This document shows positions 449 through 20,986 of a DNA stretch of 20,986 nt, piece by piece. The notes under the pieces are model-generated. The model searched no databases. It was not told where the DNA came from and saw nothing but the letters and a program-made list of their open reading frames with translations. This DNA is from a virus. The stretch spans positions 1 through 20,986 of IMG/VR virus record IMGVR_UViG_3300020220_000408, one strand, 5' to 3'. Numbering within the stretch: position 1 is the first letter of the stretch; each line of letters opens with the position of its first letter. The position numbers were made by a program, and so were the translations under genes.

Positions 449-1278
449 GTAATCAACCTTGCAAGACTATACTTGTTCATGACATGAACATCAACGTCGC
501 TGATACTAGTGCAAATATATTCACCGTGGTATTTCTCTTTCTCTACTAAGAATTTCATTGTGGAATCTTGTATGTCTAGTAATAAATCCTTATCCAAAAC
601 ATAAAACTTATATCCCGGAATCACTCCTATACTTGGCAAATCCACCTGTCCATTTAGCATGTGCACGGCTAAAGAAAATGCATAATCATTCCTATACATA
701 CTTGCATCTATGCGATATAACAAACGATAATATTGCCAATTTTCTCTTATTATTTTCACTAAGGTAAACAACATTTTTGACTCTTCATTTTTGGTAAAAT
801 ATAACACTGTGGCCCAATAAAAGGGTATAGATTGATTAATATAATCAAAAGAACTTGTATCCCGCCATTGAGCTAGATCATAACTTTTCCTGTATAACAT
901 AACATTGTGTGAACTGGAAAATAACTTTTCGAGAAAATTACTGGCTACAATATAATCACTGTCAATTACTATCGTTTTATCGTAAGGACTTAAATCATAT
1001 GCTTCGACCCTAGATAAATTTTTCCATTGCAATTTTTTATAAAACATGGATCCATCATGGAATTTTTTGGACTGAGTGGTATTTGAGAAACATGTAATTA
1101 TTTTATCAAACAGCGTCCCTGCTTCTGGTTGGCTAGAAAGTAACCATTCGGCACTATCAGTTACGATAGAAACTGGCAAATCCATATATGATTTCAACCT
1201 CTTTGCACAAAATACCGCCAGTTTACAGTAGTCAATATCTGGATTATTTTGAGCGAAAATTAAAAAACCTTTGGTCAT
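445..1278 (-). CDS. GT-A-type glycosyltransferase-like protein, 277 aa
   Basis: This is a complete protein of 277 aa with no signal peptide or transmembrane helix. The N-terminal strand GFLIFAQN, a later VSIVTD strand, and SPYDKTIVIDSD (residues 97-108) with the DxD at 106-108 fit the nucleotide-diphospho-sugar transferase (GT-A) fold. Downstream are a conserved-looking RNDYAFS (196-202) and a late DVDVHVMNK with His265. By analogy with GT8-type enzymes this His could be a third metal ligand, which is inference. The start ATG overlaps the stop of the 114-aa gene (ATGA, 1278-1275), and its own stop overlaps the next start (448-445). No good Shine-Dalgarno is visible at 1278, so translational coupling is likely. 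The position after the fibre genes suggests decoration of virion or host glycans. Substrate is unknown, and it could be a structural relative without activity. Confidence 0.85.
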   Translation of the reverse strand: MTKGFLIFAQNNPDIDYCKLAVFCAKRLKSYMDLPVSIVTDSAEWLLSSQPEAGTLFDKIITCFSNTTQSKKFHDGSMFYKKLQWKNLSRVEAYDLSPYDKTIVIDSDYIVASNFLEKLFSSSHNVMLYRKSYDLAQWRDTSSFDYINQSIPFYWATVLYFTKNEESKMLFTLVKIIRENWQYYRLLYRIDASMYRNDYAFSLAVHMLNGQVDLPSIGVIPGYKFYVLDKDLLLDIQDSTMKFLVEKEKYHGEYICTSISDVDVHVMNKYSLARLIT

Positions 1279-2650: not shown

Positions 2651-4105
2651 TTACAATATAATAACTTCAACCATTTTTACGTCAGTATTTTGATTATCTT
2701 CTAATGCCATAGCGAATGCATCAGGATGTTGATGGAAACTAGCAGCAATTGCAGTGCCATTTTCAGTTCCAATTAAGCGATCGCCTTTACGCACTGATCC
2801 TGTGACCTTACAAGGCACACGACCCTTTAGGGCTATATAAGTACCACCTTCTAATTCTGAATTCATCATGTATGCAGGTTTAGTAGAAACCACACCAATA
2901 GCGCGGTCACCAAATACTGTAGCACGTACTTCAGCTGACCCGCCCACTGTGACTACTGTGCCTGGTTCGTATTCCCTATCTGTTAAATATTTTTCTGCTA
3001 AGTCAGCATATCTAGCGGCAGTGGCAGTGCCTTGAAATAATGTTGCAGTCAAATTACCACTTGAATCTCTTGCGGCAATGGTGTTTGCTGTTGCCGCTAC
3101 AGCAGCGGCTCGATAGGTTCCAGATACACTTAAACTATCTGCCTGTGTAGCAGTACCGTTAAAACTATTTGCAAAAACTGTAGCAAATTTCAAACTGCTC
3201 GAACCTAGATCACTGAAGCTATCTACACCAGGCAATATATCTTCTGCCACTAATTTTAATGGAGTGCGTGTGACACTAGCAGACGTAGTTTGAAATACTA
3301 TTGTATTTCCTACTTGATTTTGAATAGTTGGTGTATCACCGCCAGATATAAAAACTCTTAAATCGTTGTCGTTACCTACTCTAAAACCAGCATCTGCAAA
3401 ACTAACTAAGCCTGCAAAAGCGGCACTTGATGATAAAACAAAGTCACTGGACTGTAGTCCATTTAATTTTAGGGAATTACTAGCAGTGCCCCAATACACA
3501 TGATCAGTAGATGTAACACCGCTGGACGAATAAATTAACGTAATACCCTTTTTAATAACACTAAACCCGGTAATTGAATTACTTACATTAAGTGTGAATT
3601 CATCTGCTGAAATAATGTAAATTACTTCCCCGTCAACAATTGCTTCAATAACAGCGTGGTTACTACCTAAGGTGTCTAATAAATTTCGTGACCTAAATTG
3701 TGTAGTCCCAGCACTGGCCACCCCTAACGGGCCAATGAGTACAAACGCAGAGCCGTCCCAAGAATATAGTTGTTTATTGCCGCTGTCCCACCAAAAATCA
3801 CCCTGTGTAAGGCCAGAAGGTGCGCTGGTGCTAACCTCTGCGCCGCCAGTAGTTCTATATTTTGTTCCGTCATAAAACTTTAATTTGCTAGCTCCGCTGT
3901 CAAACCACAGTTGTCCGCTAATGGGTCTGGGAGGAGCATCCGCGCCCGAAAAATTTTCTAAAAGATGAAGTAAATTTTCATTTTGAATTTCACCATAGCC
4001 AGCATAATTTTTACCAATTAATTTTAGATCTAAACTGCTGTCGATCGTGCCGTCTTCCACGACGTATGATGCTGATCCGCGATATCTATCTACACTGTAA
4101 GGCAT
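2651..4105 (-). CDS. Tail-fibre-like protein with C-terminal 'ADLAEKY' domain, 484 aa
   Basis: Residues about 17-127 form the N-terminal module shared with the next two upstream genes: a VEDGTIDSSLDLKLIGKNY core, a LLHLLENF helix (residues 45-52), then two W-D-LK-YDG units (GQLWFD at 64-69 and GDFWWD at 102-107). The middle carries fibre-shaft features, including a DLGSSSLKFATVFANSF unit and a FNGTATQAD segment. Residues about 363-484 form a compact end domain beginning ARYADLAEKY, with GTVV, IGVVSTKPAYMMN and a GDRLIGTENG loop. It resembles the C-terminal intramolecular-chaperone/autoproteolytic domains (peptidase G2-like) of phage appendages, which is family-level inference. The start is set by AGGGG six bases upstream and by matching paralogue N-termini. 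An exact late promoter octamer lies 19 bases upstream, so this gene probably starts its own late transcript. Confidence 0.88.
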   Translation of the reverse strand: MPYSVDRYRGSASYVVEDGTIDSSLDLKLIGKNYAGYGEIQNENLLHLLENFSGADAPPRPISGQLWFDSGASKLKFYDGTKYRTTGGAEVSTSAPSGLTQGDFWWDSGNKQLYSWDGSAFVLIGPLGVASAGTTQFRSRNLLDTLGSNHAVIEAIVDGEVIYIISADEFTLNVSNSITGFSVIKKGITLIYSSSGVTSTDHVYWGTASNSLKLNGLQSSDFVLSSSAAFAGLVSFADAGFRVGNDNDLRVFISGGDTPTIQNQVGNTIVFQTTSASVTRTPLKLVAEDILPGVDSFSDLGSSSLKFATVFANSFNGTATQADSLSVSGTYRAAAVAATANTIAARDSSGNLTATLFQGTATAARYADLAEKYLTDREYEPGTVVTVGGSAEVRATVFGDRAIGVVSTKPAYMMNSELEGGTYIALKGRVPCKVTGSVRKGDRLIGTENGTAIAASFHQHPDAFAMALEDNQNTDVKMVEVIIL

Positions 4106-4144: not shown

Positions 4145-5983
4145 TTACAAACCTGCCGGTAATGCCAGGTTACTGTTAAATGTCCAGTTTGATCCGTTAA
4201 ATTGATATAATTTAAACTGTCTTGTAACTGTAATTACTGCGCTTCCTGTTGGCACAGGATTTATTGCAAAATCTCCTAATACATTTTCTATTGTAGATCC
4301 GTCTGAACTTAATACTGCCGCAAAAGTCCTTGTAATCTGACTGGCCACATCAATAGCTGTAAACTGTGCTTGTGTGCTCTGGCACAAGACTCTACAATAT
4401 GTGCCAGTATCATAGTTGGCTGCTAGGAACAGATAATCTAATACTAGGCCAACTTTTGTATCAATATTTCCAACGGTAAAATCAGAACAATCTACGGTTA
4501 AGGCAATAGTCCTGCCTCTTATCTGTGCATCTACATAGTTTTTATTAGTAGCATCGGTGCCGGATGTTGGTGTAGAAAGATTAATAATTTTGCTGCTATC
4601 AACATCAATATTACCTGTTCCGCTAGGGCTGAGCACTAGATCATTGTTACTAGATAGTGTTCTAATATTATTATCATCTATTTGTATGTCATCGACAGTA
4701 ATTTGTGTCTGGGGACCAAAACTAGTAATACCAGGAGCACTGGTAATACTTGCTCCTAAACTGTTACTGCTAAGGACCAACAGACCATTGATTCGTATTT
4801 CTTTTCCTGCTGCCAAATTCACATTATCAGAGATATTAAACTGGCCTCCATGCACACCATTGTTCTTTTCCCACAACATCGAATGGTCAGTAGGAGACCC
4901 GGTAACTATGAATCCGCCGCCATCTGCATAATCCTCGCTTGCTGTACTATCACTAGATTTAGCCAGTGTTATGACTCTATCTTCGATAGTAAGATTTGTA
5001 GTTTCAATGGTAGTAGTTGCGCCTTTTACCGTTAAATCTCCGCTGATGAAAACACTGCCCGAAACATCTAAAGTTGCAACAGGATTAGATTTAAAAATTC
5101 CCACGCGCCGATCTGTAGCTCTAATCGTAAAAGCATCTTCTAGGCCAACGCCTGTTTTAGTTTTTATCTTAAAATCCTGACCTGTATTGTTACTGATAAT
5201 TTCTAATAATGTTAGACTGGTTCTAATTTCATTGTTTTGATTAGCACCAATAATTAACGGCGTGCTGTTCTGAATTGTCACTGTGCCCACCGTACTGGTA
5301 TTTTCTTCAGTAAGCATAAAACTGCTAACAGTTTTTAAACTGCCACTAGGCGCCACTAGACTGTCAGCGGAACTGGCTGTTATGTAAAATTTTTGTCCTG
5401 TTAGCGTTCCTGGGTTAAAGCCTCTGCGTATGGCACCGCTGTATCCAGTAATAGGATTAAGCGGAGTGTATGTGGTGTCTTTACTGAAAATACCTAATAG
5501 GCTAGCACCAACAAATAATTTTACTGCAACATGTTCTATCAAGACATTGTCGACTATGGTAACAACTTCAAATCCACTTTTACCTTGCGTACTTTTGTAT
5601 ATTGGTCCGGCTAATGTTAAATCAGTGCCGTCATAAAAATATAATTGATTGTTAGTACTATCTATCCAGAAATCGCCTTGCACAAATGATGTTGGTTGGG
5701 TGCCAGATACTATAGGGCCGCTTCCGACCGCAAAACTTGTACCATTATAAACTTTTAACCTACTGTTGGCAACATCGTACCAAATTTGTCCAGGTATAGG
5801 ATTATTTGGTTGTGTAGAGCTGGCAAAATTTTCTAAAATTTTTACAAAGTTTTCATTAATGTATTCTCCATAACCACTGACATTCTTACCTATAAGAGTG
5901 ATATCAGTTGAAGTTTGATCTATGGCAGCATCTGCTACCTGTGCTAGCAATGAACCATCTGTTTTGTTTATGTTATACGTCAT
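4145..5983 (-). CDS. Tail-fibre-like protein, 612 aa
   Basis: Residues about 20-127 repeat the shared N-terminal module (ITLIGKNVSGYGE, ENFVKILENF, GQIWYD at 65-70, GDFWIDSTNNQLYFYDG at 103-119). The central shaft has RRVGIFKSNPVATLDVSG (292-309), followed by SGDLTVKGATTTIETTNL and LTIEDRVITLAKS, then a GTGNIDVDSSKI...DATNKNYVDAQI segment (456-488). All are repeat types typical of trimeric phage fibre shafts. The last 120 residues (from about RTIALTVDCSDF) form a separate beta-rich end domain that I do not recognise and that is probably the tip. The start is at ATG 5983, only two bases after the collar gene's stop. The Shine-Dalgarno is poor, so coupling to upstream translation is likely. The start is supported by alignment with MSYSIQ and MPYSVD of the paralogues. 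Confidence 0.85.
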   Translation of the reverse strand: MTYNINKTDGSLLAQVADAAIDQTSTDITLIGKNVSGYGEYINENFVKILENFASSTQPNNPIPGQIWYDVANSRLKVYNGTSFAVGSGPIVSGTQPTSFVQGDFWIDSTNNQLYFYDGTDLTLAGPIYKSTQGKSGFEVVTIVDNVLIEHVAVKLFVGASLLGIFSKDTTYTPLNPITGYSGAIRRGFNPGTLTGQKFYITASSADSLVAPSGSLKTVSSFMLTEENTSTVGTVTIQNSTPLIIGANQNNEIRTSLTLLEIISNNTGQDFKIKTKTGVGLEDAFTIRATDRRVGIFKSNPVATLDVSGSVFISGDLTVKGATTTIETTNLTIEDRVITLAKSSDSTASEDYADGGGFIVTGSPTDHSMLWEKNNGVHGGQFNISDNVNLAAGKEIRINGLLVLSSNSLGASITSAPGITSFGPQTQITVDDIQIDDNNIRTLSSNNDLVLSPSGTGNIDVDSSKIINLSTPTSGTDATNKNYVDAQIRGRTIALTVDCSDFTVGNIDTKVGLVLDYLFLAANYDTGTYCRVLCQSTQAQFTAIDVASQITRTFAAVLSSDGSTIENVLGDFAINPVPTGSAVITVTRQFKLYQFNGSNWTFNSNLALPAGL

Positions 5984-5985
5984 TT

Positions 5986-8085
5986 TTATGCACCAGTGTA
6001 GATTATGTAATTTACAGTTAAGTAAGGATTGATAATGCTAAATGCTACACCTAAACTTCCAGATGTATCAATTCCTCCGCTGGTAGGTAGATATTGGCCT
6101 GTGCCTGCTGCGGTTGGCCCTTGGCCTGAAATAAAATTTGTGTCAGGTATAACTGTTGCAGAATTTCTAAATGCGAAAAACTGGGTGCCTGCATTAGCTC
6201 GCAAATCATGTTCGTGGTCTGGAATATTTGACAGTGTAAGCGATCTTTCGCTGGCTCCTGAACCTGAACCCAGTGTATCTGCTGCAACATCAGTAACTCT
6301 GTCTGCGTTGCCACCGCCGGCATCTATTAATGTGGTTGGATCTCCTATATCTGGCACTGTAGTGCCATTGTCCATATTATCTCTTCCTAGAGCAAAACGT
6401 CCCCGTAAGTCTGGTAACGCAAATGTAGCACTACCAATAAGCAAAGAAGTGGGTTTAAAACTGTAACCAACGACTGCGAATAATTCTGGGTAATCGCCGA
6501 CCCGTACTTCACTACCATCACATAGCAAGTATCCTGCAGGTGGTGTAGATCCGCCGTAGGCTAAAATTGTGCCGATGGGCATCAAAGCCACATTTGAGAA
6601 TACAGAATTTTTTGTGGTTTTTCTAAGCCCAATACCGGGTCTGTTAATTAAAAATTCGTCATTGTCTTGACTATCTAATACCGCGGTCTTCGTAGTAATA
6701 AAATCTAGGCTTATGGTTGTGTTGAAAACTGCTGTGCCAGATCCACTTTGCCCGTCAAAACTAACTGCATTACTACTAACTTCACCAGTTAAAGAAAATA
6801 CCGTAGGGCTAGATAATTTACTAGCAGAACCAGTAACGTTGCCGGTCACACTTCCAGTTAAATTTCCTACAAATTCTTGTGCAAGAATTTGGTCACCATA
6901 GATCCTTCGCCATGCTTTTCCACCTACTACAGAAGGATCTGTGCCAAGATCATAGGTTCCGTCGGCATCTGGGATAATATTAAAAGTAGTGCTGGTGTTT
7001 CTTACATTTAAAGTGCCGCCTACATTTAAATTTTTTGTAATAGCTGCACCGCCGGCTGTTCGAATACTTCCTGTTACTAAACTGGCACTGTCTGTGGTTG
7101 CAGTGATAATGAGATTGCCATCAGTTTTAATGTTACCAGACACATCCAATGCTTCAGACGGTGCTGTATTATTAATACCCACTGCTCTTGTAGAATCAAT
7201 TCTTAACACTGTTGAAGTGGTACCACCGCTCACGGTTTTGAAATCAAACGCACTACCATTTGTTTTATTATTAAAAGTTGGAATATTGTTGTCAATTGTA
7301 ATGCTTAATTCGCCACTGGAACCTATGGCTAATCCGCTAGCATTCCTTACATTAAATTGGAAATTAGTCGTGCTTGCTGTATCACTTCTTAAAAAATTAG
7401 TGGCAGGTACTGCATTTCCACCAATTACTAGCGCATCTGCTTTTTCACTTACCCCCCAAAATTTATTTGTTTCACTATTACTGTTAAAGTTCTTTGAAGA
7501 AAGATTTGTACCCTGCTTTATCTGTGTAAATCCTGCTATAGTAGACTTCGGAATAAATGCATCTTTGCTTATAATTGCAACTTTTTCGTCGCTGACAAAA
7601 AGATTTAGAACATTATGACTTATATTCGTAGTGTCTACTACTGTTTCAACTTCTGCGCCTGTTCTCAAACCACTGCTGAACTGTGGACCTACTAGGACCC
7701 AATTACTTCCAGTAAACAAATATAATTGTTGATTGTCTGTGTCTGCCCAAAGATCCCCTAGATTGCTATTTGCTACAGCAGGCGCTGAATTTGATTTCTT
7801 AATACTGCCGGCGGGAGCCCATGTAGTACCATCATAGACTTTAAGTTGATTTACACCAGCAGAATTATCATACCACAATTGTCCTTCAACCGGATTATTT
7901 GGAGCAGAATTTTTGGCAAAATTTTCTAAAAGATGTAAGAAATTTTCCGCAATAATCTGCGCATAACCTACATAATTTTTACCTATAAAAGAAACTGATA
8001 ATTGTTGATTAAGTGTGCCGTCCTCCACAGCAATGTCAGGTTTTGACACATTTCCAGCTTCGGTATATTGTATTGAATAACTCAT
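5986..8085 (-). CDS. Tail-fibre-like protein with phage tail-collar domain, 699 aa
   Basis: Residues about 20-135 are the shared N-terminal module (VSFIGKNYVGYAQ, NFLHLLENFAK, GQLWYD at 68-73, GDLWADTDNQQLYLFTG at 110-126). The shaft contains AVGINNTAPSEALDVSG (301-317), SLVTGSIRTAGGAAITKNLN and a YDLGT...AWRRIYGDQ unit. From about 502 the C-terminus is a tail-collar domain (T4 gp12 family): MPIGTILAYGGSTPPAGYLL, CDGSEV, LPDLRGRFALGRD (558-570), then IPDHEHDL with His624 and His626, and a final INPYLTVNYIIYTGA. In T4 gp12 an HxH pair binds zinc at the trimer axis, and HEH here is the likely equivalent. ATG 8085 follows GAGG at seven bases and overlaps the previous stop as TAATG. A gp12-like short tail fibre or baseplate collar protein is the best reading. 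Confidence 0.9.
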   Translation of the reverse strand: MSYSIQYTEAGNVSKPDIAVEDGTLNQQLSVSFIGKNYVGYAQIIAENFLHLLENFAKNSAPNNPVEGQLWYDNSAGVNQLKVYDGTTWAPAGSIKKSNSAPAVANSNLGDLWADTDNQQLYLFTGSNWVLVGPQFSSGLRTGAEVETVVDTTNISHNVLNLFVSDEKVAIISKDAFIPKSTIAGFTQIKQGTNLSSKNFNSNSETNKFWGVSEKADALVIGGNAVPATNFLRSDTASTTNFQFNVRNASGLAIGSSGELSITIDNNIPTFNNKTNGSAFDFKTVSGGTTSTVLRIDSTRAVGINNTAPSEALDVSGNIKTDGNLIITATTDSASLVTGSIRTAGGAAITKNLNVGGTLNVRNTSTTFNIIPDADGTYDLGTDPSVVGGKAWRRIYGDQILAQEFVGNLTGSVTGNVTGSASKLSSPTVFSLTGEVSSNAVSFDGQSGSGTAVFNTTISLDFITTKTAVLDSQDNDEFLINRPGIGLRKTTKNSVFSNVALMPIGTILAYGGSTPPAGYLLCDGSEVRVGDYPELFAVVGYSFKPTSLLIGSATFALPDLRGRFALGRDNMDNGTTVPDIGDPTTLIDAGGGNADRVTDVAADTLGSGSGASERSLTLSNIPDHEHDLRANAGTQFFAFRNSATVIPDTNFISGQGPTAAGTGQYLPTSGGIDTSGSLGVAFSIINPYLTVNYIIYTGA

Positions 8086-8716: not shown

Positions 8717-8724
8717 TATTTATA
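8717..8724 (-). promoter_or_regulatory. T4-type late promoter, exact TATAAATA
   Basis: The minus strand reads TATAAATA across the last codon and TAA stop of the giant gene (CTA TAA ATA). Twenty bases separate it from the ATG at 8696, and that stretch includes a GAGAG Shine-Dalgarno. Octamer, spacing and position match the element before the 484-aa gene and indicate that the 203-aa and collar genes have their own late transcript. Confidence 0.75.
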
Positions 8725-11700
8725 GTGGCCAAATACCGGGCACTGCCTTTATAAAATTAGTGATATTGTTATCACTATCAACTAAGCTAGTATTAGGATC
8801 ATTCCACACTTTACCTATCTTTTTCACTACAACTATTTTAGTATCGTCCGGTGGCGGACTTGTCAATCTAACTGCATTTGCATGGCTAGTCACGCTAAAT
8901 TCAGCTTCGTACTGAGCATCACCTTCGGGGCTTTCTGGATGCAGGACATTATTATGTAAAAGATACGGTTTTTTCTTTAATCTCCTACCTGCAACAAATA
9001 CTTCTATTTCGTCGCATTGTCCAAAATTATCGGGTATCGTATTCCTAAACCATTCGGTGTATGTGGTACTACCATCATCCACCGTACCCACAGTCACTAA
9101 TGGATCATAGTTTAAATAAAATACATTACTGCTATCAACCGCTACAAAGGTTTCGGTAATGTACTCATCCTTATAAGGTATAGTTTCACTGATACCAATA
9201 TTTAATACTTTAGTGCCCGAAGCATGTATTGTAGGAACTCCTGTGCCCAGCGTTCCTCTACGTAAACGATTGATAGTATTATCTGATTTACCAAAATATT
9301 CTATACGCTCGCCGTTGACATAAATTACGCCTGGAAGATTACCCTCCGGATTTGGTTCGTCTAAGATGCTAGCATTATCAACTGTAATGCTGACATCGAA
9401 TTGTCCAACATCATTTAATATAAAAGTTTGTTTATTTTTATTCAATCTTTTATATATTGTTCTATTCAGCATGTCTTTAAATTGCATGAACCCATATTGT
9501 TCTGCAGTGGTGTTAGGACTAAAACCTATGATACTGATTGTGTCAGTGTCATTTACATTTTTAACTTCTAAAGTCTGTCTATCATCAAGCAATCTCCAAT
9601 CTATGCTATGACTCAACAGAGTTCCATTCTTGATAACCCATACATAATCATCAGACAACGTGACTCTATCAAGCATGAACAGTCCGCGTTGTTTACGCCT
9701 AAAAGTGAAATAATCCACAGTGCCTGCAGTTAATGATATTGCAGGAGTTATGACTTCTTCCTTACGTTGAATATCTAGGATATCGTGATTAAAGAAACTG
9801 GTAATTTCAATCTCTGTACCATCAGGGTATAAAGTAGAATCTGTATTCAGTAATTCAAATTCAAGTCCGTTGATGGCATATTCTGCATTGACATCGACTA
9901 CTGCAACTAATTTCCCGCCTTCTAAGTAACTCGATGCACTTAATTCAATTTTGACCAATGAAAAATCGAATATGAAATCACTGCCGACGCTTAATCTTAC
10001 GCCATTGAGATAGACTTTTAAATTCGCAGGGGTAAAACTATACGGCGCATATTTGTGTTGCGGCAGTTCATATTCTAAATTGTTTCCGGAAAGAACAAAA
10101 TATTCTGCACTTGGAGCACGTAATACGCGCTGCCCCACTCTTACAATTACGTTACTCTCAAAAAATTCATTATATCCGATTTGATTTGACAGATAATATG
10201 TTAAGCTTGAACCATCTGCTACTATTATTTCTTTTTTAACAACACTAGTTTTAGTGAATTCAGTAGAATCATCGGCAAGAAATTGCTTTTGTACTAGATA
10301 ATTTACAATACTTCCTGCGGGAGGTGGCAGGGCAAATCTTACTCCTACTCTGAATGCACTCTCATATGTTATGTCAGTTTGGAATAAGTCATAATTAAAT
10401 ACTTGACCATTTACTAATACCACGCTGGTACAATTATCTGTCCATTTTGCATTAGTTATAAACTCAATGGTGCTGCCATCGCCGACAAAATAGTTCAAAT
10501 CCAGTATTCCTTCGCCATTGAATGACCAACTCGCCACAGAAACTTCTTCATTAGCTGGTGGTGTAATGGCCAGCGTTACAAGATTATTTTGCCAATCAAT
10601 TGAATAGTCTGTATCTAACTCCTTGATTATGCCCGCTACTAGAACAATAATAGCCGATCTAGAATTCGGATACTGGCCTATTGCAAATTGATTTTGACTG
10701 CCCGTGGCCTTGTAGTTTTTCCATGCTATTTTAGCACTACCATCTCTCGGCAGTGCAAATACCTTTATCGCCACAGTGTCTAAAATCTGTCCAGGAACTA
10801 ATTCTTCTGGCCCATGACTGGTGTTGGTAGATACAAAGTCATCACCATCAACTATAATATCTTCAGGTGCCACACCTGTAGCAGAGGAATAGGCTAAATT
10901 TCCTCCCTGTAATATCGTGTCATATTCATTGTCATTTGGCAAGAAACTACCGTCGCTGGTACTTCTACGGAATATTATCTTATCTCCATCATTGATATCA
11001 AGATAGATAGGATCTGAAGGATTTGGAAGATAGAAAGTGTTTGTACTTCCATCTGCAACTATGGTTTGCATAACTGCGTTATCTGGAGCAATGGTCCTAC
11101 CATTAGGTTGAACGGTAGATCCGTCGTATACATCATAGTATGGATCATCAATTCTTCTTCCATTTACATACACATTGATAACTGTGCCTGCCACTGGCGT
11201 GTAAGGAAGAGTATGCACATAGTGTGCGGAACTATCGTTGCCTACAACTTTAATATAATCGTCAAACGCAGCGTCAAAACCATCCCATTGATCACTAAAC
11301 CAAGGTAAGGCATCCCAACCTGCACCGCTGCCGAATCCAAGACCAGTGACACTTACACCTCCATAATCAATTCCATTAAACAATTGATTAATGTTTTTAC
11401 CTAATTGTCCTGTGGTAGGATTATAAAAGTGCTGCACTCTATCTAAAGCATTCAGCATTGAAATATCTTTATTATATGTGATTGCAACTGTTTGTCCGAC
11501 GCCAGGGGCTTCTTCTAATGTAAGGACACTGTAATAGTATGTGTATCCTTTTGATACATCACGTTTAGTCACTAAACTATAAGTTTCACGTAGAACTTCT
11601 TGACCGTCTACGGTGACTGAACTCCTTCCAACCTTAACATCGGCGGGCCATTTCAAAGAAAATTGCTTGAGGCTACCGGAACCTGTAAATGTTTGTGTTT

Positions 11701-14700
11701 CTTCCAGTTCAGTAATAAAATAATTATTAGTCGTCCGGTCAAATTTGACTGCTATGTGCATAGACCTTACAGATTCAGATTCTAGTATTGCTATTGCTTT
11801 CGCAGCAGTGCCATTTTCGTACAATCCGCCATCTAGAACAATAGTCGGAGCGGATAAAAAACCTGTTCCTGGATTAAGTAATTGGATTCTGTTAACTTGT
11901 CCGTTAGCAATATATGCTTTAGCAATAGCACCAGTACCATTGCCTGAAATTCTTACCACTGGCGGTGTTACATATCCACTGCCGCCACTACAAATTTCAA
12001 TTGACTTAATTTTAAACCCTACATTATCGAACCAGTTTTTCCAAGGATATTCTGTTACATCCGAATCTGACGTTTGAATTTGGTTGTCATAAAATATTGC
12101 TTGCAATGGCACTATTTGTCCGTTCTCCGTTATTTTTTGCGGTAAATCAAAATCTGTTACAACCGTAGGAGCATCATCTATTTTTGTGTAGGCACTGACG
12201 TATTCTCTTATTTTAGTTCTATAAGGTTTTACTTCATTGATATAATTTTCAAATGAAGATAAATTATCATTATTATAATTTACTTTTTGCCTTAAATCTC
12301 CAGCATTGTGCGTGGCCTTGATGAAACTAGTTTTCATAAGCCAATCTAAATATGACTGTTCACTCAACGCATATCTAAATCCTACAAACACAGTGTCTAT
12401 CCAATAGTTTTTAAGATTATCAACAAATATATTGTCGCGTAAAGTTTCTAAAATTATCCTTAGTTCTAGTGTTGCTGCATTATCATAAGTATCATTGTCA
12501 AACAATCCACCATCAAATGTCAGTAGACTATTTTGTAGTTTCCATAAGTTGTCTGAAAACTTTATAGTTCCGTTTTTCCTGCCTACAACTTTATAACTTT
12601 GCGTATAGTCTTGACTGTTGACATTGCTATATTTTTCTAAAAGTAACCAGCCGCCGCTGCCAACTTGCTTAACCTCAACTATATCTCCTATAGACGATGT
12701 TATCAAAGGTATCTGATATGTAAAATCTACAGAAAAATCTATTTTTGTAAATTGATTATAGCCACTGCTATACCAATCTATGTAAGACCAAAAAGTACTT
12801 ACGTCATAGCTCTGAGACTTTATTCTCGACCATAACTTTTTAATAGTGTCATATGCGTATATACTCCAACGGTTTAATGCGTCAGAATCATTGGTTACTA
12901 ACACACTGTACGATCTTACAGAAAGAGCTGTGGAACTAGTATAACCTTTGCCACTATGAATTACTTCTACTCCCGTAATCCTGCCCTGATTGTCTATAAT
13001 GGCCTTTAGTGAAGCTCCTAGGCCTGAACCTTTCACATTAATGAACGGAGCATTGGTATATCCTATTCCAGGATCATTTACCATTGCTCCAATTATAGCT
13101 CCATTAACAATAACCGGAGACAGTGAAGCAGTGCGGAGTGCACTGGTAGATATAAATCGCAACTCTCCAACAGAATCAATTTGTTTGTCAAATTTACCCG
13201 AAGATGCTGACGGAATATCTTCTTTCTCATTTAATCTTGATATATCAAAATCATCTACTATCAATATGGCTTTCAACACACTGTTAGCATACTCTAGCAC
13301 TTGTTTCAATGCTTCATACCTATAAACAAACATAGACTGCCTGGGCCTAAATTCTATTCCATATTTTTTCTTAACAGGCAGATTAATGTCAGGTACAAGC
13401 CTATCGTTTTTATCTTTTCCTACTAGACTGTCAATAAATTTATCTTGAATCAGCTTGGGTATCAGACAGTCTGCATCTTGTCTAATTATTTTCCATTGAC
13501 TATGAGTATTAATCCTATCTTTGTCAGTGATCCAATATTGCACATTTAATTTTACATCACTGTCATTTAATAGATCTTCACAGTTAAAGAAACTAACACT
13601 ATCTGTAGAAGTAAATGCAACAAATTTATATCCTTGTGCTTTAGGATCTGCTATCAAGGATGCAACGCTGGCCGCGCTTAATGTTCTTCCTTCGACACTA
13701 GGTATTGTTGATTTGTTTTTTACCCAAAAATAATATTGTTTTTTGAAGGTTTTTGTCTGTGTATCGTAACGTCTTTTTTCACTGACTATGCTGTTTCCAT
13801 ATCTAGCTCTACCGCTTATTCCCTGTGCCAACCCTTCTTCAGTGTCTGCAAGATTATTCCATTGCGAAGGAGTAAACTTTGATTTCACCCATTCATACAC
13901 GTCAACACTTGCGTTTTCATATAATCTATTCCATACACTGTTTCTGTAGGTAATGGCAGAATCATTGGGTTCTATAAATTTAGCTGTTGTCAAATCCCAC
14001 CACAGATATCCTACAAATTTATCTGTCCAATTCGCTCCATCATCTACATTTACTGTGGCATCTCCTATAGAATACACAGCAGGATCATAATACGTTTTAA
14101 ATTTTATTTCTTGATCCGCTGCACCAGCTATTTTTCCAGCGATAGGATCTAAACAATCCAAGTAGCTAATTAATTCATTAGAGTTAGAATTGTACAAATA
14201 TATTTTTTTAATTTTATTCGTGTCTACATAATCAATTTGTTCTGATTTTTTAGTCCAACTAAATTTATTTGCAGATTTGGAATAAATTAGTATACTTCCT
14301 GACTGGTTTGTGCCCTGATATGCCGCAGTTGGCGCAGAAACGTAAACTTTGTTTGGCACAGTTTGTATGTCGTCACCATAATTATCGTTAAGAATAGTAA
14401 CATAAGTTTGTAAATTTTCGGCGAAAATATAGTTATTAACATAACGATCATACACATCTATTCTACCGCTATCTAAGAAAATATCATTAAATTCCAAAGT
14501 AGCTTTGTCAAAGGTAGTGGTTAAATTGTCGAAACTAGATTTGATAAAACTATCTCCGTTGCGAGAAAAAATGACTATAGATTGATCGTCGTTAAGGAAT
14601 CTTACCCTATGCCCAAACTTTTCAAATTCTTCTGCTTGATTTCTAACAATAATTTGATGCAAGCTAAATGAATTGCTATCTTGCTGGCAGACGAACACTG

Positions 14701-17700
14701 CACCTTGATTTTCTAGTGCCGCAGTGTAACTTGCACCACTGATTGCAAGGAATCTGCCATTATCACTTAAGGATAAGCTTTCTCCTAATCTTAGGTCTTG
14801 ACTTAGATCAAAATTTCTGCCGCTGATTATATCTTGCAATACGAAATTAGTTTCTTGATAACTGTAGACAAAAACTTTTCCTCTGTTTATCTGTGCGTTC
14901 AATGGCGACCATCTTGCAGGATTCCATTCTTCAATGGTGAACATTGGAACTGTGGAATCTAATCTGCCCGCACTGTCCTCTAATTCATACTCGGAGTCGC
15001 TATATGGACCTTCAAAGACGTAGTAAATGCCTTGATAATTTACAACATCACCTTTGATGTAAGCCATGTCATTTCTAAATACGCCTTTGTATCTATCAAT
15101 GTTAATATCATCACCGTAGGGTGCAGATATTACCAATTTAGATCCGTCTTTACTGATATCAAAGTCATAGCCAAACTTACTACCTTGTAACACAGATTCA
15201 GCGGTCTCAGACTGCAGGATAAAAGAACTATCATCATCAGTGACAATCTCATCTTCAAAAGCCACTATATCTTTCGGAACAAAACACTGCACATCGAAAT
15301 TTGTAATTTCTTGCCACAGACTAGTATTATTTTCGAATGGATCTAATGGTACGTCAGCGTTTGCTTTGTATAATTTCTGATCATAAAATACTATGTCGCC
15401 CTCAATGTAGGTTTTATTTGCATTGTGTTTACCTTGGAATGCTCTGTTATAATCCATATGCCATTCAAACCCACTGGCATCTGACACCGCACCGTACCTA
15501 AAAAAGTAAATCCTTCCTTGATCATTGTTAAATCCAGAACTGCTTATTAGAGCTAGATATTCTCCGTTTTGTTCAACGATTTTAATTTTAGAACCAAATT
15601 TTTCATTATCTGAAGGATAAGGACTGACTATTACGTGTTGCATGAAATAATTACCGGCACCATCTTTCCTATACACGTAAACGAGTCCTTGATTAGAAAA
15701 AATGCTGGAAGTGCCTAATAAATTTACTTCTAGTAATCTAACCTGTTCCCAGTCTTCGCTGAATTCAGAAATAGTTGTGCTGTCAGCACCAACAGTATGT
15801 ACTGCTTTCCAATGAACATATCCTACTGTGACTATGTCACCTTCATAGTACGTTTCACCAACTATTAGACGCCCTCTATATTTTGTTCTCACATTGCTAG
15901 CTAATGGTTCTCCGATAAACAACCATTCACTGTCTGGACTGATGCACAATGTATTGCCGAATGAACCTGTGTTACTAGCTATTCCCACGTTTGCAGTAAG
16001 TTGCTGTTTTGGCAACCATACGGCATTGGCATCTAATTCAAAGATGTTTACCGTGCGGATTGATGAAGGCGTTAAAGAATCATCTAGCAGTTGTGCAACT
16101 GCTGCCTTATCGCCTCTTGCATTTATGGAAAATGCGACGCCGAACTGCTTATTAACCGTTGGAAACGTCTGTTCAAACTCTCGAAAATTAAACACTGCTT
16201 TGTTTTGCCACACTGTCCATTTGTTGTTATCTTGATTGTCGCTCCAGACCAATTCTCCAGACTTTAAACTGGACGGCAAAAAATCATTTGCATTGTCGAA
16301 TTCATTAATACGCTGTGATTCGAAATAAAATACCTGCGGTACTCCGTTTAATGTCACTTCTGCTTTGTTCGCAGTGTTAGCCACAAATACTTTCGACCCC
16401 TCTAATTTAGTGATTTTGTAATATCTGCTTAGATCGCCGCTATTAGTAAGAAATATTACTTGTCCAACAGACAAATTAGGTTGGGTTTTAAAATGAATTT
16501 GTACTTCTGTCGCTGTTGCAAATACCAATTCGATCTCTAATGGTACAGGACTATATCTGTAAATATTCCATGATAGTGCTTCAAATGCACACCACACATA
16601 ATCCCCTTCGACCAACTGTGTAAATGTAGAAAGTGTGGTTAATTCATCTAAATTATTCACATTCAATGCGACATCATCGTATCTTACGTAACCTGAACTT
16701 CTTAAAAGCCGCTTATAATCATAATTTTTTGGCCAGATATCATATTGGAAATTAATTGGTTTTACATGTACGGCATCAGCATTTTGTCGAATTACGAAAT
16801 CTGAAAAATTTTGTTGTGTTCCAGACCTTAACAACAAAGGTTGTGGATTTATTTTAAATAGACTTTCATCTAAAGTCAGCTCAATTTCATCAAAAGCTGA
16901 TATTCCCCCATAAGTACCAACTCTTACTGCCCATTCTTCGTCAAGACTTAAACTTTCTTGTTCAGCCGCACTGAGCACATCAAATAATTTACTTAAAACA
17001 TTTTGCGTGCCTTTTTCTAAAATCATTCCTTGATAGAATTTATATTGACTAACATCATCTTTGATTATGCTTTCTAAATATTCTCTCTTTTGATAGCCAA
17101 TTAAATGTTGCGCAATTTTCTGTTGATTCACATCAAAATTATCTGTATTCAAATCATAGAAATCATTAAATTGTTCTGCCTTGTAATCCCAATTAGGTAG
17201 TAGATCTTTTTCCGGTGGCTTATCTAACTTTGTCCAAAAATTATCATTAAACTCTGATTGCCCTGCAATAAATTTATTAGCGGAATAAAAAAACTGTTTG
17301 TAACGAACCGTATCGCCTAAATTATAATCGGTATTAGACTCCCACTCAGCTATTTTTGCCTCGTCGAATAATAAACCTGGTATATTAACTGTACCGTTCC
17401 ATCCGTCACTGATATAGCCTAAAACTTTAATTTTTTCTTGTCTATAGCCTGGTTGAGGATCGTAAATGACATCGTTGAAAAAAGTTGTATTATCTAATAT
17501 TAGTACGTGTTCTTTTTGTACAAGATAAAATGTCGCCGCATAAATGCCATCATTTAAATTTGCAGGCGATATCACATATGCACCATCTTCTCTGTTTACA
17601 TTTAAAAACTCACTGGCCAATGGGGTTCCATCACTACCAAGAATTAAATAGGGATAAAAAGGATCAGTAATACTATTAACCATTGATAGATTAGTGCGTA

Positions 17701-20700
17701 ACACTAATCTTTTTGCGGCAGGTGATAGACAAATTACGCTGCCTACAGTCCAATTTTGCGTTAGCCAAAATGCAAATTCTTTAGCGCTGGTAGTCCAATT
17801 TGATATTTGGTTTGTTTCATTGTCATACTCATCAAATTCGAAACCTAGTGTAGTTAAATATTTTTCATAGCCTATCAGGAAATCTACTAGCTCTTGGTAA
17901 TCGTATAATCTAGTTCCGTATGGTAATCTAGTCAATGTAGACGCAAATTTAGTTTTAATTTTTATTTCTTTTCCACCAACTACAGGTAATGAAGGAATAG
18001 ACACAAATTTTGAACTGTCGAAATTTTCAGAGCTGGTGTGATTTACTATGCAGCGATAATATCTATTATCGTTTTCAATTATCATACCTACCCTGTATAT
18101 TTGTCCGCTGGCGTATACCATAAATTTTTCCGATATTCCGCCGATGTTGATATTTCTTCCTGTGCCTGTTGGTCTGTAAAAATCAAAATAAGGATCTAAG
18201 TATGAATATCCTCTAATTTCATAACCGTCACTGAATTTTTGTATAATAACACCGCTATAGTTTATTTGCGCGATAGGTGAATTAGTGTTTAAAAATATAT
18301 CGAAGTTTTCTTCGGGCACGAATACATTTGATCTAGCAGCCGGACTTTTACTATCTAATAACAGTTTAAATTTGCTTTTGTTAGTAAATCCACCTAACTT
18401 ACTGGTTAGATTACAGCCGATGTTCATTAATGAAGCACTATATGCTTGATATGGTTTATCATTTGGACCAGTAAGTGAGTCAACGATGTAGTTAACAATG
18501 CCGCTGGTAAAATTTCTGGTTTCACTAAATGACGTCGACGGCAAAATGACATCTTGGAGATTAAATCTTAGATTTGTAGCTGCATACACGAATTGATTAT
18601 TTTGTGTTCTGTTAATCCTTGATTTATCAAAATATAAACCTAAAACTTTGTTAGGATACATTAATAACAATATTTCTAAAATTGAAAAAGCATAATAACT
18701 AGACCTTGCCCATGCAGTTTCAACTGGTGCACCATCACCAAATATATAATCATCTGATGCATTGTGTTTTACAAAACCAAATACAGAATTACTGCTAATT
18801 GGATCTAATAAGGCGCCGTATTCGTCTACAGGTATCCTGGTCAATAATTCGGGTCGTGTAAATTTATCTATTCTTATGACAGGCTTATTAGGTTCTCTAA
18901 TAATCCCTTCTTGAATATCTTCCCATAATATTAAATTATTATTTGTATATGGCCGAGGACCATAAACTTCCTGCCACCAAGAGGGCTCGATAGTAAAACC
19001 TAAACATTCCCAGGGATGCGTATGAGGTCTGTCAGTGTCAAAGAGGTACTTGTAAATGCCCCTCCAAAACCCTCTAGTAGATTCTCCGTTGCTAAAAATG
19101 TTGTCTTTAAAATTGTAAGTGAATGGATTAAGCTGATCAAAAAAATCGTTTGCCTTTAAATCAACGTCTAACAGCGTAGTCCATTGATAAAATCTACTAC
19201 TTAGAATGTCTAAAAATTCTTCCCTGGAATAATCTGTGGTTCTTGCATATCCAGGAATTATACTAAAGATATCAATAATAGCTGGATCGTAATTACACTT
19301 TATATTATTAAAAATTCTTTTTTCTAACTCTAACAATAATTGATCGCGATAATCACCATAACCTATTGTTATACTACCATCATGGCCTTGAACCACAGTA
19401 GCGTCAACTAGATAAGTGTCATCTATGTATATTTCAGGAACAAATTTAGGATATAATCCTAATTTAGTAGGTGTAGCAGGTACGAAACTACCATCGGTGT
19501 TTTCATACTCCGCTATAATAATTTTATCGTTTTCATTAATACTAGCAATTATAAAAACAAAACCTTCATTGGTAAATGTATAATCTTTTCCACTGATTAG
19601 CTGGATACCATTAAGATACACCAGCACAGCTTTATTAGATAATGTACTTAATGAATGATTAAATGATAATGGATAAGTTTTAATATCAGCATCTAAAACA
19701 TCAAACTCATATTTTTTACCGGCCCTATATGGTATCATATCACTTAGAAAATACTTTTCCGTGTTGCTTTTAGATTTGTTAATTTCATACAAAATAGCAT
19801 CAACAAATTCATCCACTGGAGCATCTATTCCTAATTTTTCTGCTGTAAGTAAAAAGTTTCTTTTAAATTTACCGTAATCATTTTTTGCAGTTTCTATGGA
19901 TTTAAGTGCGTTAGCATTCTTATCTCCGAGATGCAATAATGTATTAGCTGCTGGTCCGCTATGTTGTACAAAACGGGTGCCGTATTGGGCAACTAGGCCT
20001 AGATCTCTTAAGTTGCCGTCTCCGGGAAACTGGCCCTGGAAATTTTCATAATTGCTTACAATAGTGCCAACATGATCTATAACTTGCCCCAATGTAAAAT
20101 CAATCACTGGTTGATTCAAAGGATTATTTTGTAATACTATAGGTATTTCATAGTAGCCATTATTATTTTTAGCCTGTTTAGCTAGACTTTTAATTGTTAC
20201 GATATCAATATCTTTAACATCCTCAGTTAATATTATTTTTTTATATCTGATATCATCCACAACTGTGTATTGAGATGGATTAACTAATTCTCCGTTGACA
20301 TATAAATTGATCTTAAGATCAATTAAATCACTGATATTGTCATAGACATCTAGCAAAAAGTTATTTACAATCTGATTTCGTGTGCCATCTCTAGCTACAG
20401 AAAATTCTTCTTTGTATATTCTTACCACCCGTTGATAATCCTCGCGATGACCCGCAGTCCAGCCTGTTACATAGCTAGCCCCATTATCATACAATTTTAA
20501 ATAAAATTTCTTTAAATTCTCTGTCGTTATCTGCTGATCAACCTTATAGGAAAATGTATCTTTATAAAAATTATAGTCAAATAATATATCACCAATATTG
20601 TTTATATTCCTATAACTTAAAGAAAATCCTAATTCCCTATCGGTAATGCCCGTATTTCTTTTGTAGGAAAAAACTTTAGTACCCCTAAAGGTGGATCCCT

Positions 20701-20986
20701 CATAAGCAGCTACATTAGAAATCGAAACTCCATCGTTATCAAAGACATCAAATAACACATCTTGATTTGTTGTTGTTTTCTCTTGTCCTAGTCTCCACAC
20801 ATCGCCGTCAAACCAGTACATTTTACCTTGATTGGTGCCTAATTTTACCAGCACAGTTTCATCTACAATTGGCTGAGAGTCACTAGTATCTATTAACGTA
20901 ATTTGTTTTCTACGTCCTAATCCTGATTGCACATCAATAAATTTAACTTGAAATATTCTGCCGTTTACTCTAATATCTGTGTCGGC
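8720..20986 (-). CDS. Giant modular virion structural protein (5' end outside window), at least 4088 aa
   Basis: The frame is open from the right edge (first visible residues ADTDIRVNGRIFQVKF) to TAA at 8722-8720. The GTG at 20932 is inside continuous protein and is not the start. Modules in order: an N-terminal part with a VYLNG fibre-type unit (about 19630); a block with DTDRPHTHPWECLGF and YGPRPYTNNN (about 19040-18930); two carbohydrate-binding-like modules (about 18135-17985 and 17357-17210); an FG-GAP-like beta-propeller (about 16200-14240) with three more such modules inserted; two Gly-rich GxGY repeats (13118-12905 and 12012-11820) around an EVKPYRTKIREY motif (about 12225-12190); and at least six VNG/DGST beta units to the C-terminus, with an RRGTLGTG motif near 9250. 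There is no membrane segment. Order before a small gene and the collar gene suggests the gp7 place of a T4-like baseplate, or a baseplate-anchored fibre. The role is inferred; coding is certain. Confidence 0.88.
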   Translation of the reverse strand, partial: ADTDIRVNGRIFQVKFIDVQSGLGRRKQITLIDTSDSQPIVDETVLVKLGTNQGKMYWFDGDVWRLGQEKTTTNQDVLFDVFDNDGVSISNVAAYEGSTFRGTKVFSYKRNTGITDRELGFSLSYRNINNIGDILFDYNFYKDTFSYKVDQQITTENLKKFYLKLYDNGASYVTGWTAGHREDYQRVVRIYKEEFSVARDGTRNQIVNNFLLDVYDNISDLIDLKINLYVNGELVNPSQYTVVDDIRYKKIILTEDVKDIDIVTIKSLAKQAKNNNGYYEIPIVLQNNPLNQPVIDFTLGQVIDHVGTIVSNYENFQGQFPGDGNLRDLGLVAQYGTRFVQHSGPAANTLLHLGDKNANALKSIETAKNDYGKFKRNFLLTAEKLGIDAPVDEFVDAILYEINKSKSNTEKYFLSDMIPYRAGKKYEFDVLDADIKTYPLSFNHSLSTLSNKAVLVYLNGIQLISGKDYTFTNEGFVFIIASINENDKIIIAEYENTDGSFVPATPTKLGLYPKFVPEIYIDDTYLVDATVVQGHDGSITIGYGDYRDQLLLELEKRIFNNIKCNYDPAIIDIFSIIPGYARTTDYSREEFLDILSSRFYQWTTLLDVDLKANDFFDQLNPFTYNFKDNIFSNGESTRGFWRGIYKYLFDTDRPHTHPWECLGFTIEPSWWQEVYGPRPYTNNNLILWEDIQEGIIREPNKPVIRIDKFTRPELLTRIPVDEYGALLDPISSNSVFGFVKHNASDDYIFGDGAPVETAWARSSYYAFSILEILLLMYPNKVLGLYFDKSRINRTQNNQFVYAATNLRFNLQDVILPSTSFSETRNFTSGIVNYIVDSLTGPNDKPYQAYSASLMNIGCNLTSKLGGFTNKSKFKLLLDSKSPAARSNVFVPEENFDIFLNTNSPIAQINYSGVIIQKFSDGYEIRGYSYLDPYFDFYRPTGTGRNINIGGISEKFMVYASGQIYRVGMIIENDNRYYRCIVNHTSSENFDSSKFVSIPSLPVVGGKEIKIKTKFASTLTRLPYGTRLYDYQELVDFLIGYEKYLTTLGFEFDEYDNETNQISNWTTSAKEFAFWLTQNWTVGSVICLSPAAKRLVLRTNLSMVNSITDPFYPYLILGSDGTPLASEFLNVNREDGAYVISPANLNDGIYAATFYLVQKEHVLILDNTTFFNDVIYDPQPGYRQEKIKVLGYISDGWNGTVNIPGLLFDEAKIAEWESNTDYNLGDTVRYKQFFYSANKFIAGQSEFNDNFWTKLDKPPEKDLLPNWDYKAEQFNDFYDLNTDNFDVNQQKIAQHLIGYQKREYLESIIKDDVSQYKFYQGMILEKGTQNVLSKLFDVLSAAEQESLSLDEEWAVRVGTYGGISAFDEIELTLDESLFKINPQPLLLRSGTQQNFSDFVIRQNADAVHVKPINFQYDIWPKNYDYKRLLRSSGYVRYDDVALNVNNLDELTTLSTFTQLVEGDYVWCAFEALSWNIYRYSPVPLEIELVFATATEVQIHFKTQPNLSVGQVIFLTNSGDLSRYYKITKLEGSKVFVANTANKAEVTLNGVPQVFYFESQRINEFDNANDFLPSSLKSGELVWSDNQDNNKWTVWQNKAVFNFREFEQTFPTVNKQFGVAFSINARGDKAAVAQLLDDSLTPSSIRTVNIFELDANAVWLPKQQLTANVGIASNTGSFGNTLCISPDSEWLFIGEPLASNVRTKYRGRLIVGETYYEGDIVTVGYVHWKAVHTVGADSTTISEFSEDWEQVRLLEVNLLGTSSIFSNQGLVYVYRKDGAGNYFMQHVIVSPYPSDNEKFGSKIKIVEQNGEYLALISSSGFNNDQGRIYFFRYGAVSDASGFEWHMDYNRAFQGKHNANKTYIEGDIVFYDQKLYKANADVPLDPFENNTSLWQEITNFDVQCFVPKDIVAFEDEIVTDDDSSFILQSETAESVLQGSKFGYDFDISKDGSKLVISAPYGDDINIDRYKGVFRNDMAYIKGDVVNYQGIYYVFEGPYSDSEYELEDSAGRLDSTVPMFTIEEWNPARWSPLNAQINRGKVFVYSYQETNFVLQDIISGRNFDLSQDLRLGESLSLSDNGRFLAISGASYTAALENQGAVFVCQQDSNSFSLHQIIVRNQAEEFEKFGHRVRFLNDDQSIVIFSRNGDSFIKSSFDNLTTTFDKATLEFNDIFLDSGRIDVYDRYVNNYIFAENLQTYVTILNDNYGDDIQTVPNKVYVSAPTAAYQGTNQSGSILIYSKSANKFSWTKKSEQIDYVDTNKIKKIYLYNSNSNELISYLDCLDPIAGKIAGAADQEIKFKTYYDPAVYSIGDATVNVDDGANWTDKFVGYLWWDLTTAKFIEPNDSAITYRNSVWNRLYENASVDVYEWVKSKFTPSQWNNLADTEEGLAQGISGRARYGNSIVSEKRRYDTQTKTFKKQYYFWVKNKSTIPSVEGRTLSAASVASLIADPKAQGYKFVAFTSTDSVSFFNCEDLLNDSDVKLNVQYWITDKDRINTHSQWKIIRQDADCLIPKLIQDKFIDSLVGKDKNDRLVPDINLPVKKKYGIEFRPRQSMFVYRYEALKQVLEYANSVLKAILIVDDFDISRLNEKEDIPSASSGKFDKQIDSVGELRFISTSALRTASLSPVIVNGAIIGAMVNDPGIGYTNAPFINVKGSGLGASLKAIIDNQGRITGVEVIHSGKGYTSSTALSVRSYSVLVTNDSDALNRWSIYAYDTIKKLWSRIKSQSYDVSTFWSYIDWYSSGYNQFTKIDFSVDFTYQIPLITSSIGDIVEVKQVGSGGWLLLEKYSNVNSQDYTQSYKVVGRKNGTIKFSDNLWKLQNSLLTFDGGLFDNDTYDNAATLELRIILETLRDNIFVDNLKNYWIDTVFVGFRYALSEQSYLDWLMKTSFIKATHNAGDLRQKVNYNNDNLSSFENYINEVKPYRTKIREYVSAYTKIDDAPTVVTDFDLPQKITENGQIVPLQAIFYDNQIQTSDSDVTEYPWKNWFDNVGFKIKSIEICSGGSGYVTPPVVRISGNGTGAIAKAYIANGQVNRIQLLNPGTGFLSAPTIVLDGGLYENGTAAKAIAILESESVRSMHIAVKFDRTTNNYFITELEETQTFTGSGSLKQFSLKWPADVKVGRSSVTVDGQEVLRETYSLVTKRDVSKGYTYYYSVLTLEEAPGVGQTVAITYNKDISMLNALDRVQHFYNPTTGQLGKNINQLFNGIDYGGVSVTGLGFGSGAGWDALPWFSDQWDGFDAAFDDYIKVVGNDSSAHYVHTLPYTPVAGTVINVYVNGRRIDDPYYDVYDGSTVQPNGRTIAPDNAVMQTIVADGSTNTFYLPNPSDPIYLDINDGDKIIFRRSTSDGSFLPNDNEYDTILQGGNLAYSSATGVAPEDIIVDGDDFVSTNTSHGPEELVPGQILDTVAIKVFALPRDGSAKIAWKNYKATGSQNQFAIGQYPNSRSAIIVLVAGIIKELDTDYSIDWQNNLVTLAITPPANEEVSVASWSFNGEGILDLNYFVGDGSTIEFITNAKWTDNCTSVVLVNGQVFNYDLFQTDITYESAFRVGVRFALPPPAGSIVNYLVQKQFLADDSTEFTKTSVVKKEIIVADGSSLTYYLSNQIGYNEFFESNVIVRVGQRVLRAPSAEYFVLSGNNLEYELPQHKYAPYSFTPANLKVYLNGVRLSVGSDFIFDFSLVKIELSASSYLEGGKLVAVVDVNAEYAINGLEFELLNTDSTLYPDGTEIEITSFFNHDILDIQRKEEVITPAISLTAGTVDYFTFRRKQRGLFMLDRVTLSDDYVWVIKNGTLLSHSIDWRLLDDRQTLEVKNVNDTDTISIIGFSPNTTAEQYGFMQFKDMLNRTIYKRLNKNKQTFILNDVGQFDVSITVDNASILDEPNPEGNLPGVIYVNGERIEYFGKSDNTINRLRRGTLGTGVPTIHASGTKVLNIGISETIPYKDEYITETFVAVDSSNVFYLNYDPLVTVGTVDDGSTTYTEWFRNTIPDNFGQCDEIEVFVAGRRLKKKPYLLHNNVLHPESPEGDAQYEAEFSVTSHANAVRLTSPPPDDTKIVVVKKIGKVWNDPNTSLVDSDNNITNFIKAVPGIWPL
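11820..12012 (-). repeat. Gly-rich GxGY/GxGF beta-repeat pair B in the giant protein
   Basis: SIEICSGGSGYVTPPVVRIS, then GTGAIAKAYIANGQV, then LLNPGTGFLSAPTIVLDGG, repeats the two-half-unit scheme of pair A. The EVKPYRTKIREY segment (about 12225-12190) lies between the two pairs. Confidence 0.55.
12905..13118 (-). repeat. Gly-rich GxGY beta-repeat pair A in the giant protein
   Basis: Two half-units (NDPGIGYTNAPFINVKGSG and GVEVIHSGKGYTSSTALSV) are separated by a GASLKAIIDNQGRI stretch. The same scheme recurs about 900 bases downstream. Such units form short beta-hairpin stacks in phage and other surface proteins. Confidence 0.55.
14897..15090 (-). repeat. Carbohydrate-binding-like module 5, inserted in propeller blade 4
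   Basis: FRNDMAYIKGDVVNYQGIYY, then a longer acidic loop and ARWSPL. It sits between the LVISAPYGDD strand and the GKVFVYS strand, the same loop position as module 3. Its acidic loop makes it about 15-18 residues longer than the others. Confidence 0.55.
15300..15440 (-). repeat. Carbohydrate-binding-like module 4, between propeller blades 3 and 4
   Basis: NANKTYIEGDIVFYDQKLYK, then SLWQEI, is a complete CBM5/12-like pattern. It follows the GRIYFFRYG strand of blade 3 and precedes the SKFGYDFDISKDG blade. Confidence 0.55.
15735..15875 (-). repeat. Carbohydrate-binding-like module 3, inserted in propeller blade 2
   Basis: GETYYEGDIVTVGYVHWKAV, then a closing DWEQVRL. It interrupts the blade between its FIGEP strand and its GLVYVYRKDG strand, so it would project from a loop of the propeller. 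Confidence 0.55.
17210..17357 (-). repeat. Carbohydrate-binding-like module 2 in the giant protein
   Basis: AEWESNTDYNLGDTVRYKQF, then FYSAN, GQSEF and FWTKL, gives the full CBM5/12-like pattern (W, TxYxxGDxVxY, YxA, closing W). It is the clearest copy. It lies upstream of the propeller. Confidence 0.55.
17985..18135 (-). repeat. Carbohydrate-binding-like module 1 in the giant protein
   Basis: The unit reads MVYASGQIYRVGMIIENDNR followed by YYRC and a Phe-rich end (ENFDSSKF). It follows the CBM5/12-like scheme of an aromatic Y, GxxV/I, a second aromatic pair, and a closing bulky residue. It is the most degenerate of the five copies. Confidence 0.4.

Follow-up and report, generated by a model that had tools for sequence, protein, structure and literature searches.

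The window, a 20986 bp stretch of viral DNA that is an entire IMG/VR fragment, encodes a giant phage structural protein that almost certainly contains a seven-bladed FG-GAP-like propeller with CBM5/12-like units, as judged from structure prediction and homology (Table 1). The protein is an assembly of known parts, namely a propeller, CBM5/12-like units and a giant baseplate protein. In the literature that we searched, with incomplete coverage, we found no paper on this combination of propeller and CBM-like units.

Table 1. Features of the giant ORF. Amino acid i of the ORF starts at plus-strand coordinate 20986-3(i-1). AF2, AlphaFold2-type model; HMM, profile built in this work.
Feature	Coordinates	Strand	Residues (aa)	Remarks
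Giant virion structural protein ORF	8720..20986	-	≥4088	5' end lost at window edge
CBM5/12-like unit A	18002..18115	-	958-995	Conserved core; present in PA5oct and Atu_ph07, absent from RaK2
CBM5/12-like unit B	17225..17347	-	1214-1254	Conserved core; absent from PA5oct, Atu_ph07, SCTP-2 and RaK2
Propeller blade 1	15995..16132	-	1619-1664	Blade HMM, AF2
Propeller blade 2	15629..15952	-	1679-1786	Unit C splits B-C loop; HMM, alignment, AF2
CBM5/12-like unit C	15737..15880	-	about 1703-1750	Blade 2 B-C loop; weakest copy, HMM E 0.0077
Propeller blade 3	15455..15586	-	1801-1844	Blade HMM, AF2
CBM5/12-like unit D	15302..15439	-	about 1850-1895	D-A link, blades 3/4; resembles Milano tail-spike docking unit
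Propeller blade 4	14822..15163	-	1942-2055	Unit E splits B-C loop; HMM, alignment, AF2
CBM5/12-like unit E	14900..15091	-	about 1966-2029	Blade 4 B-C loop; HMM E 0.0025
Propeller blade 5	14648..14776	-	2071-2113	Blade HMM, AF2
Propeller blade 6	14411..14617	-	2124-2192	Blade HMM, AF2
Propeller blade 7	14240..14368	-	2207-2249	Blade HMM, AF2

We identified the giant ORF by its conserved core, which matched the phrog_10938 'virion structural protein' profile (E 1.7e-250). This places it with the virion structural proteins of jumbo myoviruses like RaK2, PA5oct and Atu_ph07. A full-length relative of 4552 aa (L002) was 62% identical to the window protein. The giant proteins of PA5oct, Atu_ph07 and SCTP-2 (28-33% core identity) and RaK2 (23%) are 3300-4450 aa long, and the PA5oct record carries an ESI-MS/MS note, from virion mass spectrometry, on its homologue. 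A gp6-type baseplate wedge gene lies directly upstream of the giant gene in PA5oct, Atu_ph07, RaK2 and L002, where it belongs to phrog_10646. In T4, gp7 directly follows gp6, which is the place taken by the giant gene. Three core alignments gave no match to gp7 in hhalign, a comparison of low sensitivity with a single-sequence template. Synteny and annotation thus point to a location at the baseplate rim, in line with the phage baseplate context proposed in the first-pass annotation. Few phage virion proteins are larger than the giant baseplate proteins of the RaK2/PA5oct type. Against PDB sequences, core segments A5 and A6 had no match, while segment A2 retrieved just the CBM-like unit and one insignificant match. 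Searches of NCBIfam and Rfam returned no match. Further along the ORF, G-x-G-Y repeats at aa 2640-2690 and 3001-3085 matched the profiles phrog_438 (baseplate wedge) and phrog_1922 (hub/lysozyme).

The propeller is predicted by both profile and structure. An iterated blade HMM recovered seven blades at aa 1614-2245, of which one fell under the counting cut-off (0.067) and two are broken up or lengthened by inserts, and had no matches in shuffled proteins. An AF2 model built from an alignment of 30 relatives (mean pLDDT 83.9, pTM 0.84) had 28 strands, or seven blades of four, at 16132-14240. The profile of the same alignment matched integrin alpha-4 in the PDB (E 2.6e-8), and integrin alpha chains were the top Foldseek matches of the model (E 1.2e-11). 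VIA aligned the model with integrin alpha-M (Z 23.6, 365 residues) and a G-beta chain (Z 22.9, 299 residues), lengths that omit most insert residues. These results uphold the FG-GAP-like propeller that had been proposed at 14240-16200 from the letters of the sequence. Against the FG-GAP_2 profile (PF14312), the window protein scored 16.8 bits, under the cut-off of 23, and L002 scored 34.3 bits, above it. A first, shallow AF2 model from three sequences was poor (pLDDT 50.7) and would by itself have suited a fold other than a propeller, but it is superseded by the deep-alignment model, which together with the integrin matches and insert-free homologues makes it hardly credible that there is no propeller or that the inserts are propeller strands.

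Integrin alpha propellers, including those with an alpha-I domain, also have seven blades and carry their binding modules on the B-C/D-A face. The integrin I domain sits between blades 2 and 3. The window propeller differs in belonging to a phage baseplate protein, in lacking the DxDxDG calcium sites (DINID at aa 1960 was the only loose match) and in having several small inserts of CBM fold rather than a single I domain. Viral FG-GAP proteins in BFVD, from uncultured Caudovirales, giant viruses and S-TIM5 (a virion structural protein), have the same type of propeller; here it is joined to a baseplate protein at the gp7 position and to CBM-like units.

Three such units interrupt the propeller, as the first-pass annotation had it, with the YxxGDxV motif at aa 1713, 1860 and 1976 (about 15850, 15409 and 15061). 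Two of them, C and E, occupy the same loop of their blades. Two further copies had been read upstream, at 18135-17985 and 17357-17210, and units A and B were found there, with motifs at aa 964 and 1221 (about 18097 and 17326). With an iterated HMM seeded from the five units, 82 related giant proteins yielded 282 copies (E<1e-3); shuffled and reversed sequences yielded no copy. By this HMM, PA5oct and SCTP-2 have one unit each, Atu_ph07 two and RaK2 none. The Pfam CBM5/12 profile (PF02839) recognised the window protein as a whole (34.9 bits in total, cut-off 26.2) but not its units one by one, which scored 13-25 bits, with no match for unit C alone; 39 of 40 tested units matched at E<=1. In the AF2 model, units C, D and E have a common pattern of four short strands, and unit E has an additional loop modelled at low confidence (model residues 407-426). 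Outside phages, chain AE of 7b5h (All3316, Cis13), from a cyanobacterial thylakoid-anchored contractile injection system, matched the unit profile (E 4.4e-6), which suggests that contractile machines may commonly contain this unit.

We examined where the units sit and how they have come and gone. Every one of the 28 units found in the 29 non-redundant propellers is in one of three loops, 2B-2C, 3D-4A or 4B-4C. The B-C and D-A loops are on one face in any beta-propeller, and integrins carry both their ligand site and their I domain on this face. Propeller topology thus puts units C, D and E of the predicted fold all on one face, although three sites on the same face are weak evidence alone (a 1 in 8 chance of this face). 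In the 30-row alignment, counted with its near-duplicate row L001 excluded, 12 phages cleanly lack unit C, nine have D and five have E, with the propeller continuous on both sides. In five relatives (L050, L028, L036, L042 and L082) the propeller is naked. A core tree built with the insert zone left out requires no fewer than three, four and three state changes for C, D and E, respectively. The unit tree indicates a single origin each for A, A2 and B, and unit B is a clean insertion relative to PA5oct, Atu_ph07, SCTP-2 and RaK2. The propeller units are the least conserved, with a mean identity within site of 26% for C-C against 53% for B-B. Units group by site across phages and those of the same protein are no more alike than others, so we rejected recent tandem duplication as their source. 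The strand pattern, the propeller alignments that skip the inserts and the insert-free relatives support the view that the inserts are separate, removable modules, as had been suggested, and in the model they do not form propeller strands. In relatives, the propeller carries anything from no unit to three, a natural series that makes the role of the phage CBM-like unit, docking bead or lectin, directly testable. Another type of insert, about 45 aa long ('PGMxIxGxGFTSGQTV...DSTTLxLS'), lies near the C-D turn of blade 3, apparently on the face opposite the CBM-like units, and recurs in L045, L072, L037, L039, L044, L052, L057, L078, L086 and L087.

At least 582 IMG/VR stretches encode a relative of the core. 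The propeller occupies a variable position between two conserved core segments, which measures 228 aa (RaK2), 341 aa (PA5oct), 875 aa (the window) and 1554 aa (Atu_ph07). Of 68 proteins spanning this position, all 64 from outside the four isolates had at least three detected blades; these 64 are the best matches to the window core and not a census of the family. The blade HMM detected no blades in the four isolates, RaK2, PA5oct, SCTP-2 and Atu_ph07, which have other or shorter sequences at this position and, in some cases, CBM-like units. A tblastn search of 50,697 phage records found no relatives of the window propeller; the propellers of two relatives gave weak FG-GAP matches only in one case and none in the other. 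A scan of genome contigs found two homologous contigs, L102 and L103 (153 and 335 kb), in one Neomarinimicrobiota MAG. These are probably jumbo-phage contigs that were mis-binned, and therefore we do not infer a host from this MAG.

The unit is clearly akin to CBM12, its profile matching the ChiA1 domain 1ED7 (E 4.7e-8) and the CBMs of chitin deacetylases (E 4e-10). The phage units share the sequence profile, the strand pattern and the core Tyr and Trp of CBM5 and CBM12 domains (1ED7, 2RTS and the deacetylase CBMs), whereas chitin binding has been shown for the enzymes and most ligand-site aromatics are gone from the phage copies. CBM5 binds chitin through an adjacent surface pair, Y-W or W-W, and the ligand residues named for ChiA1 CBM12 are Gln679 and Trp687 (PMC8449059). 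Among 288 family units, the positions of the CBM5 pair (columns 25/26) are aromatic in 1% and 10%. The Trp687 column (column 33, mapped by extension of an ungapped match with residues 2-29 of 1ED7) is Trp in 2% and Phe in 90%. Conversely, the core Tyr (Y265 of CjCBM5, column 8) is Tyr in 93%, and the core Trp (W299 of CjCBM5, column 38) is aromatic in 98% and Trp in 59%. The known chitin-binding residues are thus nearly absent from the units, while the core residues are kept. Considering the conserved Phe33 and the Trp that unit E, alone among the window's five, has at about the Trp687 position, a sugar site in the units is possible from sequence. The annotation 'chitin-binding type-3 domain-containing protein' is attached to one PA5oct-like record, and automatic labels of this kind may mislead when given to phage structural proteins.

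Solved phage tails offer another precedent for the unit. Its best PDB match was the Milano tail spike gp124 (8FQC, E 6.8e-14), the N-terminal module of which is wedged between two baseplate wedge proteins via proline-rich loops and binds the tail via 55-VPPGTP-60 and 100-RTDLPPGPFDPANWQ-115 (PMC10811340). In our reading of the unit-profile alignment, this tail-binding loop would correspond to the chitin-site loop; unit D has LYKANADVPLDPFENNTSLWQEI there. Head subdomain D2 of CBA120 TSP1 has the 1ED7 fold, and its authors note that polysaccharide binding by such heads was never reported (PMC3966878). Both modules are at the N-terminus of trimeric spikes, in contrast to the propeller loops here. 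The CBM5/12-like unit is thus a recurrent building block of phage tails, in solved examples a docking domain, and we rate docking as no less likely than the binding of glycans. This precedent and the loss of the CBM5 pair and Trp687 from nearly all copies do not bear out the idea of a glycan-binding head as first put forward.

We favour, with about even confidence and over a polyvalent lectin, a docking role suggested by analogy, in which portable units on the propeller platform would dock and present fibres. The giant baseplate protein would take the place of T4 gp7, with the propeller segment as a built-in accessory head. The propeller would be a rigid platform with CBM5/12-fold units grafted into the loops of one face. 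The units could act as portable interaction beads: their long loop, the site of chitin binding in chitinases, would now hold other proteins of the tail as candidate partners, for instance fibres or spikes. Gain or loss of units would then alter what docks at the baseplate rim. Against docking, the divergence of the propeller units also fits receptor-driven change.

The strongest alternative, which we consider possible but not probable, is a polyvalent lectin head, where the propeller would be a scaffold for three weak glycan-binding CBM units with avidity for capsule, LPS or exopolysaccharide. Their placement on the same face would be analogous to the ligand-binding elements of integrin alpha subunits, and their repeated gain and loss and fastest divergence are also consistent with this reading, as are the CBM12 kinship, Phe at the Trp687 position, a partly kept His-Thr-Ser and the Trp of unit E. 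Conversely, the CBM5 pair and Trp687 are rarely present in the family, phage head domains of this fold are those with no reported polysaccharide binding (PMC3966878), and no host binding was seen with a carbohydrate-binding module from the neck fibre of A-1(L). Somewhat more doubtful is an integrin-like receptor-binding head of a large group of uncultivated jumbo phages, in which interchangeable CBM-fold lectin units on the ligand face of the propeller would set polysaccharide specificity. Passive spacers or decorations, that is, neutral insertions with no ligand that are tolerated in the propeller loops of a very large protein, are improbable: naked propellers, poorly conserved units C, D and E, and loops that also take unrelated inserted domains would suit them, but the core aromatics and Phe33 are retained in about 90% of units, the units stay at fixed sites and cluster by site, and unit B is strongly conserved.

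Two adjacent ORFs at 2-1278 (minus strand) have glycosyltransferase-like DxD stretches (LLDADM, VIDSDY); the first had a weak GT8 match (E 0.003) and the second none. Three tandem genes on the same strand (2651-4105, 4145-5983 and 5986-8085) are alike at the N-terminus, being 33-40% identical over about 190-330 aa. Their C-termini differ, and the last gene has a Tail Collar domain. From their sequences, the three are possibly paralogous fibres with one attachment module.
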